Source: Spirochaetota bacterium (GTDB lineage: Bacteria; Spirochaetota; UBA4802; JAGODF01). From it: a stretch of DNA of 64,000 nucleotides. The position numbers and the translations under genes were made by a program. The stretch spans positions 1 to 64,000 of the forward strand of contig JARKUF010000038.1 in NCBI GenBank assembly GCA_029974015.1, in the 5' to 3' direction. Shown one piece after another: positions 62,620 to 64,000 of the stretch. Each line of letters begins with the position of its first letter. The stretch's first letter is position 1. The notes beneath the pieces were generated by a model. That model was not told where the DNA came from, did not search any database, and saw nothing but the letters and a program-made list of their open reading frames with translations.

Positions 62620-63111
62620 TCACTTTCCGCCCCCGATATCGCAAGCGCCTTCCAGCTCTTCCCGCCAGGCTCGTCCGCGGAAGGTGTTGTTGCAGAGATT
62701 AGCAAACCGCATGGTCCGCATGAGCTTCAGTATATACTTCCGCTCTCTTCCGCCATACTCCGCGCGAAAATCGTCCATATAATCGCCCGCCGGCTCCGCT
62801 CCGTCGAGGCATGCCCAGTCACGGGCGTACTTCAAGGCGAGCCACTCTCGGCGGTCAAAATCTTTTTTATCGAGGGCGATGAGCTTCTCAATCTCGTCCC
62901 CGGAGACGCCTACCCTCCCTGCCAGGGAGGAGTGGGCCTTCATTCACCCATAGCAATTGTTCACCACGGAGACGGTCAGGAGGACTTTCTCACGGAAACG
63001 CGGGTCTACCCGAAGAAAGGTCATTAAAAACGTGGGGCCCCGAAAAAGGTCCGCCATGCGGGCCAGAAAATCGGCGAAGGAATTAAATTTTCTCATTTGA
63101 ATACCGCTCAT
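62620..63111 (-). CDS. AhpD-like thiol oxidoreductase, probable selenoprotein (in-frame TGA = Sec)
   Basis: A 163-residue AhpD/carboxymuconolactone decarboxylase-like protein if the TGA at 62946-62944 is read through. The protein reads VNNC-Y-G-(TGA)-M-K-A-H, which puts the TGA exactly at the second Cys of the family's CxxCxxxH active site (Cys 53, Sec 56, His 60). Both sides are in the same frame and continue the fold (FLRVDPRFREKVLLTVS before, GVSGDEIEKLIALDK after). Thirteen bases past the TGA is a perfect stem-loop, the expected place for a bacterial SECIS. ATG at 63111 has GGAGG five bases upstream. The alternative is a nonsense-mutated gene. Confidence 0.8.
62914..62930 (-). promoter_or_regulatory. 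SECIS-like stem-loop
   Basis: On the mRNA, CCTCCCT pairs with AGGGAGG around GGC. It begins 13 bases after the TGA. G residues in the apical loop and this spacing are features of bacterial SECIS elements recognised by SelB. Confidence 0.65.
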
Positions 63112-63213
63112 CTTTCCTCCACAACGGCTTCTTGCACTTTCTCCCATGCTTCCATCTCTACTTCCATGGAAAACCGGCCTCTGGCAGGGAGGTCATGTCC
63201 GCCCCGGAGGCAT

Positions 63214-64000
63214 TTACCGGGGACCTCTTTTTTTTAGCACCCGTTCCATGCGGTACGCCAGGTAATTCGCATAGAAGGCGACCCTTCCGCCGAATCCCAC
63301 GAAAGCGATGGTGAGCACCAGCCCGGCCATGGAGAGGGAAATGAGAAGCCAGCGCTCGGCAAGGCGCCGGGTGACCGTTTCCGAATAGGCGATGACCGGG
63401 GACGGCTCCAGGGGAGTTTCTATGGTGAAGGTCCGTACCACAGGGTCCGTCCAGTAATACACTTTTTTCCCCCTAACGGTTTTATGATACTTTCCTTTAT
63501 AGGCAAGATAATAGGTCCCGTCCTTCAAATCTTTGATGCTAATTACATTGCTTCGGAGGTTCACTGCATCGCCGGGCATGGTTTTCTTTTTATCAAGCAC
63601 CACGGAATATCCCGCCACGTTCTGCTCCCGTATATTACGTGGCGAAATGAACACGTCAAAGGACCCGCCGCCATAGCTCCGATCGGTATCGAAGGGAAAA
63701 TTCAGCACAAAAGCGGGCGCCCGTGGGACCGCCCTTCTTTTCACCACCGTAGTATCGGGCCTTTCCTTGTTCATCTCCCTGGCCACTCGTTTTATATACT
63801 CTAAATCGAGGGCCTCGGCCTGGCCTACTATGATTTCATAGCTGGACAGGGCGCCGGGTTTATTGGTCTTGTCCACTGCCCGTATGCTAAAGAAATAACG
63901 CCCCTCACCCAGGTCCCGAAAGTCGGCCGAAAAGTCCGTAGTGAAGGTCACCGGCTCCGCGATCTTGTCCCTTGTAAGGCCGACAAGGAAGCCCTTTGTC
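63214..64000 (-). CDS. Membrane-anchored protein with Ig/FN3-like domains (5' end outside window)
   Basis: At least 262 residues, open to the window edge. Two beta-sandwich-like stretches are visible, DLGEGRYFFSIRAVDKTNKPG and DLKDGTYYLAYKGKYHKTVRG. The first type is typical of Y_Y_Y or fibronectin-III-like repeats found in surface and sensor proteins. A single TM helix near the C-terminus (WLLISLSMAGLVLTIAFVGF) is followed by a short basic tail, so the bulk would be extracytoplasmic. Function unknown. Confidence 0.65.
   Translation of the reverse strand, partial: TKGFLVGLTRDKIAEPVTFTTDFSADFRDLGEGRYFFSIRAVDKTNKPGALSSYEIIVGQAEALDLEYIKRVAREMNKERPDTTVVKRRAVPRAPAFVLNFPFDTDRSYGGGSFDVFISPRNIREQNVAGYSVVLDKKKTMPGDAVNLRSNVISIKDLKDGTYYLAYKGKYHKTVRGKKVYYWTDPVVRTFTIETPLEPSPVIAYSETVTRRLAERWLLISLSMAGLVLTIAFVGFGGRVAFYANYLAYRMERVLKKRGPR

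Follow-up and report, generated by a model that had tools for sequence, protein, structure and literature searches.

An AhpD-like gene with a conserved in-frame TGA in Spirochaetota predicts a selenoprotein subfamily for which no cysteine orthologue was found

The AhpD-like gene and its reading frame

The stretch of DNA analyzed here (the window; 64,000 nucleotides) comes from a 3.26-Mb genome that groups with Spirochaetota, its same-genus and same-order relatives being Spirochaetes MAGs. With TGA translated as U, one frame on the minus strand, 63111..62620, encodes a 163-residue protein of the AhpD/CMD fold; the features of this locus are collected in Table 1. The TGA at codon 56 is the only interruption of the frame (the first base past it is 62943): the first and second pieces are contiguous in the frame translation, with no frameshift between them, and the gene contains no further stop or frameshift. 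The original prediction had described just this arrangement, two contiguous in-frame pieces split by TGA only, and had placed the TGA on the second cysteine of a CxxCxxxH motif; both points hold at the locus, where the active-site residues read NNC-YG-U-MKA-H. It had also anticipated that a plain annotation would split the gene, and table 11 indeed gives two pieces. Standard gene calling under table 11 breaks up or shortens the gene, so that the subfamily is easily overlooked in annotation.

Table 1. Features of the AhpD-like locus in the window
Feature	Position	Strand	Basis
AhpD-like/CMD-like gene of a predicted selenoprotein, 163 aa, Sec56	62620..63111	-	U translation; Shine-Dalgarno-like GGAGG; PF02627 and TIGR00778 above cut-off; dN/dS well below 1 on both sides of the TGA
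ATG start	63111	-	Shine-Dalgarno-like GGAGGAAAG immediately 5'
Terminal stop TGA	62622..62620	-	End of frame
In-frame TGA predicted to encode selenocysteine (U56) at the second Cys position of the motif, C53-x-x-U56	62944..62946	-	TGA at that codon in 19/19 orthologues
Upstream region with Shine-Dalgarno-like GGAGGAAAG	63112..63147	-	Sequence
Codon of C157, family-specific C-terminal tail Cys	62641..62643	-	In 18/19 Sec proteins, a Cys lies 104-109 residues past the first Cys of the motif
SECIS-like hairpin CCTCCCT-GGC-AGGGAGG; 20 nt from TGA to loop	62914..62930	-	Fold tests; rules of PMC13188914

A second candidate ATG at 63147 is also in frame; the extension from it is unconserved among orthologues. 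One orthologue (L013:1297-2043; G027:C84) has a TAA in frame 5' of the conserved start, which is consistent with the use of that start. Upstream of the AhpD-like gene lies a same-strand gene of 816 aa (window 63214-63999 together with L093:1215-3665, minus strand), which by eye is repeat-rich and of surface type, with a C-terminal transmembrane segment; its in-window part has no Pfam match.

When C is substituted for U, the product matches the Pfam model CMD (PF02627; 31 bits, cut-off 23) and the AhpD core domain model TIGR00778 (32.6 bits, cut-off 27.8). The motif E-x11-C-x2-[C/U]-x3-H corresponds to E41, C53, U56, and H60. The positions that are invariant or nearly so in the orthologue alignments include R40, E41, K42, C53, position 56, and H60: the C, position 56, and the H are invariant in all aligned orthologues, and the E is present in all except L088, which has Lys. 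The AlphaFold model is nearly all helical (mean pLDDT 91.8). Among solved structures, PA0269 and Atu0492 match it best, and the sequence profile search agrees with this. We computed dN/dS against the same-genus orthologue separately for the portions before and after the TGA and obtained ~0.13 before it and ~0.18 after it (dN 0.16, dS 0.89). Selection on the gene is purifying past the TGA.

Conservation of the TGA among orthologues

A protein search over 59 genomes (the window's own and its relatives) gave matches of at least 36% identity in 16 genomes, the window's included, and all 16 have TGA at the CxxU position. When 393 genomes of the phylum were searched with a profile, the 16 Sec genes scored 210-252 bits; after a clear gap, the next matches scored 68 bits or less, and none of them has a TGA. 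Three more orthologues came from scanning ~85,000 species representatives, one each in a Desulfobacterales MAG (L082), a Syntrophobacteria MAG (L088), and an unclassified bacterium (L086). All three have TGA, and the sole other match was a distant haloarchaeal CxxC protein. The resulting set comprises 19 Sec orthologues (16 from Spirochaetota, including that of the window, 2 from Thermodesulfobacteriota, and 1 from an unplaced bacterium), and the codon is TGA in every one. No Cys orthologue was found in the 393 genomes of the phylum or among the ~85,000 representatives, the latter scan relying on conserved peptide patterns.

Homologues with Cys at position 56, which the original prediction had expected from an alignment, do exist, but only as distant paralogues: the nearest non-Sec relatives are deep CxxC paralogues outside the Sec clade. 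A single branch with support of 100/99 divides the Sec from the Cys set in the tree, which was built from 19 Sec and 20 Cys proteins (the Cys relative L061 was left out). As read from the codon, every member of the clade found so far has Sec. The viral contigs searched contained no relative, and the plasmids searched contained only distant relatives (<32% identity) annotated as CMD family. Across families there is no conserved gene neighbour, only local synteny between close relatives; therefore, no operon-based function can be proposed, and partner and substrate have no neighbourhood support. In the Syntrophobacteria MAG (L088:5986-6981), the Sec AhpD-like domain appears to be fused to a membrane domain resembling PEMT/isoprenylcysteine methyltransferases, which follows it in the same frame.

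This distribution bears on two other ways of reading the locus. The two pieces under table 11 are what one would see if an AhpD-like gene were decaying and the TGA were a plain nonsense mutation in it. However, the same TGA codon is kept in 19/19 orthologues from at least two phyla, the gene has no other lesion, selection after the TGA is purifying, and the Sec machinery of the genome is complete (see below), which makes a pseudogene exceedingly improbable. Cys-bearing close relatives lacking the hairpin, combined with further lesions in this gene, had been named at the outset as grounds for giving up the selenoprotein reading, and neither was seen. The locus could also encode two small proteins, the second of them starting from an ATG directly after the TGA (TGA ATG). 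An ATG does follow the TGA in the window and in several relatives, and it offers a 107-aa ORF to a table-11 caller; however, the next codon is GTA, GTT, ATC, ATT, or ACC in L011, L012, L014-L017, L082, L086, and L088. Moreover, the cut would run through the catalytic CxxU helix, and neither half would have a whole active site. We consider two separate proteins very unlikely and favor a single protein with selenocysteine at position 56.

The SECIS-like hairpin and the selenocysteine machinery

After 13 intervening bases from the TGA begins a perfect 7-bp hairpin (stem CCTCCCT, 62930..62924; loop GGC, 62923..62921; AGGGAGG, 62920..62914), exactly as originally described; an added T.G pair extends it to 8 bp. 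According to published rules, a bSECIS has a loop of 3-9 nt, a stem of 4-16 bp, a G in the first two loop positions, a distance of 16-37 nt from the UGA, and an MFE of -7.5 or lower (PMC13188914). A comparison of the bases after the TGA with these rules, a check suggested with the original prediction, showed agreement on every point: the loop is 3 nt, the stem is 7-8 bp, the loop sequence is GGC (G first), the distance is 20 nt, and the energy is -11.6 kcal/mol for the simple stem.

When the peptide was recoded synonymously 1000 times, only 0.8% of the recodings gave a hairpin as strong at the SECIS position (p = 0.008 for the window gene alone). Combining this test across the 19 Sec genes yields p ~1e-7, a value that is too optimistic because the genes are related and their independence is overstated; for 12 Cys relatives it yields p ~1. 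In the fold test, 16 of the 19 Sec genes passed the published SECIS rules versus 3 of the 12 Cys relatives, and the three Sec genes that missed the strict rules are L006, L012, and L015. The RNAalifold fixed-register consensus of the hairpin is weak because the stem register varies by ~2 nt between members. An Rfam scan of the region returned nothing at gathering level.

The original prediction had implied that the organism possesses selA, selB, selC, and selD, and all four are present in the genome. selC (tRNA-Sec, anticodon UCA), selA, and selB are contiguous on one strand (L091 4364..1060); selD (L092; G000:C11:15000-17500) itself holds an in-frame TGA (GSGU). With this set of four, the Sec trait is complete in the genome. 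The gene preceding selD is by eye methionine sulfoxide reductase B-like, in a Cys form. Other TGA-containing redox genes had also been suggested as a check, and besides SelD we found a peroxiredoxin with an in-frame TGA in TFVUATE (L095; G000:C27:72105-72713, plus strand). At least three genes of this genome, those for the AhpD-like protein, SelD, and the peroxiredoxin, appear to use Sec. The peroxiredoxin gene has a hairpin downstream of its TGA, and its TGA form, at 78-100% identity, occurs in 24 of the 59 genomes searched, counting the window's own. selA was detected in 15 of the 16 spirochaete genomes that carry the AhpD-like Sec gene, the exception being G002, which is 69% complete. The contrast in selA between gene-bearing and gene-lacking genomes of the order is not significant alone (p = 0.10), because the Sec trait is common in the order.

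A full-length product would result from any read-through, and the UGA might thus be decoded as a residue other than Sec, either by code reassignment or by near-cognate read-through. On the other hand, TGA is also the terminal stop of the window gene and of several relatives, the paralogues align Cys at position 56, and the genome has both tRNA-Sec (UCA) and selB. We give such decoding next to no weight. Neither of the genes whose absence would have told against Sec insertion, selB and selC, is missing. The TGA in 19/19 orthologues, the hairpin conforming to SECIS rules, and the full machinery thus support the original claim that the enzyme is a selenoprotein. On these sequence data, we estimate the probability that the gene encodes a functional AhpD-fold selenoprotein at about 0.96, a figure that excludes the substrate, the partner, and the relay through the tail Cys.

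Proposed mechanism and comparison with known AhpD-like proteins

The gene would encode a stand-alone AhpD-like (CMD-fold) thiol/selenol oxidoreductase. Given the complete machinery and the SECIS-like element, the hairpin 13 nt past the UGA is predicted to recruit SelB with Sec-tRNA(UCA), leading to the insertion of Sec at position 56. In the folded enzyme, E41, C53, U56, and H60 would make up the AhpD proton-relay active site; by analogy with AhpD, U56 would be the attacking selenolate and C53 would close the selenenylsulfide.

The family-specific C157 sits in a short tail, GACDIGGGK in the window protein. This tail is the lowest-confidence part of the AlphaFold model, as expected if it is mobile, and most Cys paralogues end in hydrophobic C-terminal extensions and share no such Cys. 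Mobile tail redox residues are known in other selenoenzymes. The analogy suggests that C157 is a third redox residue, a tail thiol resolving or shuttling electrons: it would probably exchange with the C53-U56 pair and pass electrons in or out. The conserved tail Cys offers a concrete, testable mechanism.

Physiologically, the protein may support peroxide detoxification of the peroxiredoxin type, as an adaptor or as a reductase, or it may reduce peroxides directly; such a role in peroxide detoxification, although weakly supported, is the most likely one. The Sec peroxiredoxin encoded in the same genome has no Cys after the Sec in its translated frame, which would make it dependent on an external reductant. 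We considered this peroxiredoxin as an obligate partner but do not claim it: their co-occurrence has p = 0.024 in the order but is not significant within Sec-using genomes (p = 0.09), and so does not establish a link.

A broader reading is that these proteins form an undescribed AhpD-like subfamily with obligate Sec and no Cys form, in which the C53-U56 pair and a mobile C-terminal Cys make a three-centre relay, Sec has been locked in by the changed mechanism, and the Syntrophobacteria member carries a PEMT/ICMT-type fusion. Taken as a whole, we offer this reading tentatively, with odds somewhat short of even.

Of the characterized proteins, PA0269 (2O4D, 2IJC, 7XW1) and M. tuberculosis AhpD share with the window protein the all-helical fold and the E-x11-C-x2-C-x3-H proton relay, to which Glu36, Cys48, Cys51, and His55 of PA0269 correspond in spacing (PMC3141380). 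However, both have Cys where the window protein has the predicted Sec, and the window protein is only ~20% identical to PA0269. In addition, the AhpD relay position His132/Tyr50 is unconserved in the Sec subfamily, where it is Gly, Thr, Ala, or another residue.

As the original prediction had stated, AhpD-like proteins include known selenocysteine forms: CxxU members date back to genome and metagenome surveys (PMC1794560, PMC2398784), and several have been catalogued (PMC13188914). The marine (GOS) survey lists AhpD-like 1 (COG2128) and AhpD-like 2 (PF02627) (PMC2398784), and the 2026 catalogue lists a CMD-like protein (PMC13188914). All of these belong, like the window protein, to the CMD/AhpD family, with Sec in place of the second CxxC cysteine and bacterial Sec insertion. 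The Sec forms of the marine survey occur alongside many Cys homologues, whereas no Cys orthologue was found for the window subfamily. AhpD-like 2, which is defined only by PF02627, might include the window subfamily.

Two NCBIfam models have related names. The GSU3128 family (seleno)protein model NF041047 (84 positions), listed as a distant AhpD homolog, shares the AhpD core with CxxU. However, the window protein is unmatched by it at E 0.001 and failed the equivalog test, and the matching relatives, scanned singly, score 19-23 bits over ~40 positions against a cut-off of 110. The GroundWater_YciW (seleno)protein model NF053654, also AhpD-like, gives the best of the weak matches beyond the core domain, but the window protein, which failed this equivalog test as well, scores 19.9 bits, and the best score is 34, against a cut-off of 310. 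Among the curated NCBIfam equivalogs, none covers the window subfamily. With scores this far below both cut-offs, the window protein is a new addition to the known AhpD-like CxxU selenoproteins, and its subfamily is apparently uncatalogued; this all-Sec group seems to be undescribed, unless it falls within the published AhpD-like 2. For nearly all selenoenzymes, the Cys homologues are said to be far commoner (PMC13188914). Against this background, a clade of 19 in which no Cys orthologue was found would be a useful case for asking why Sec is retained.
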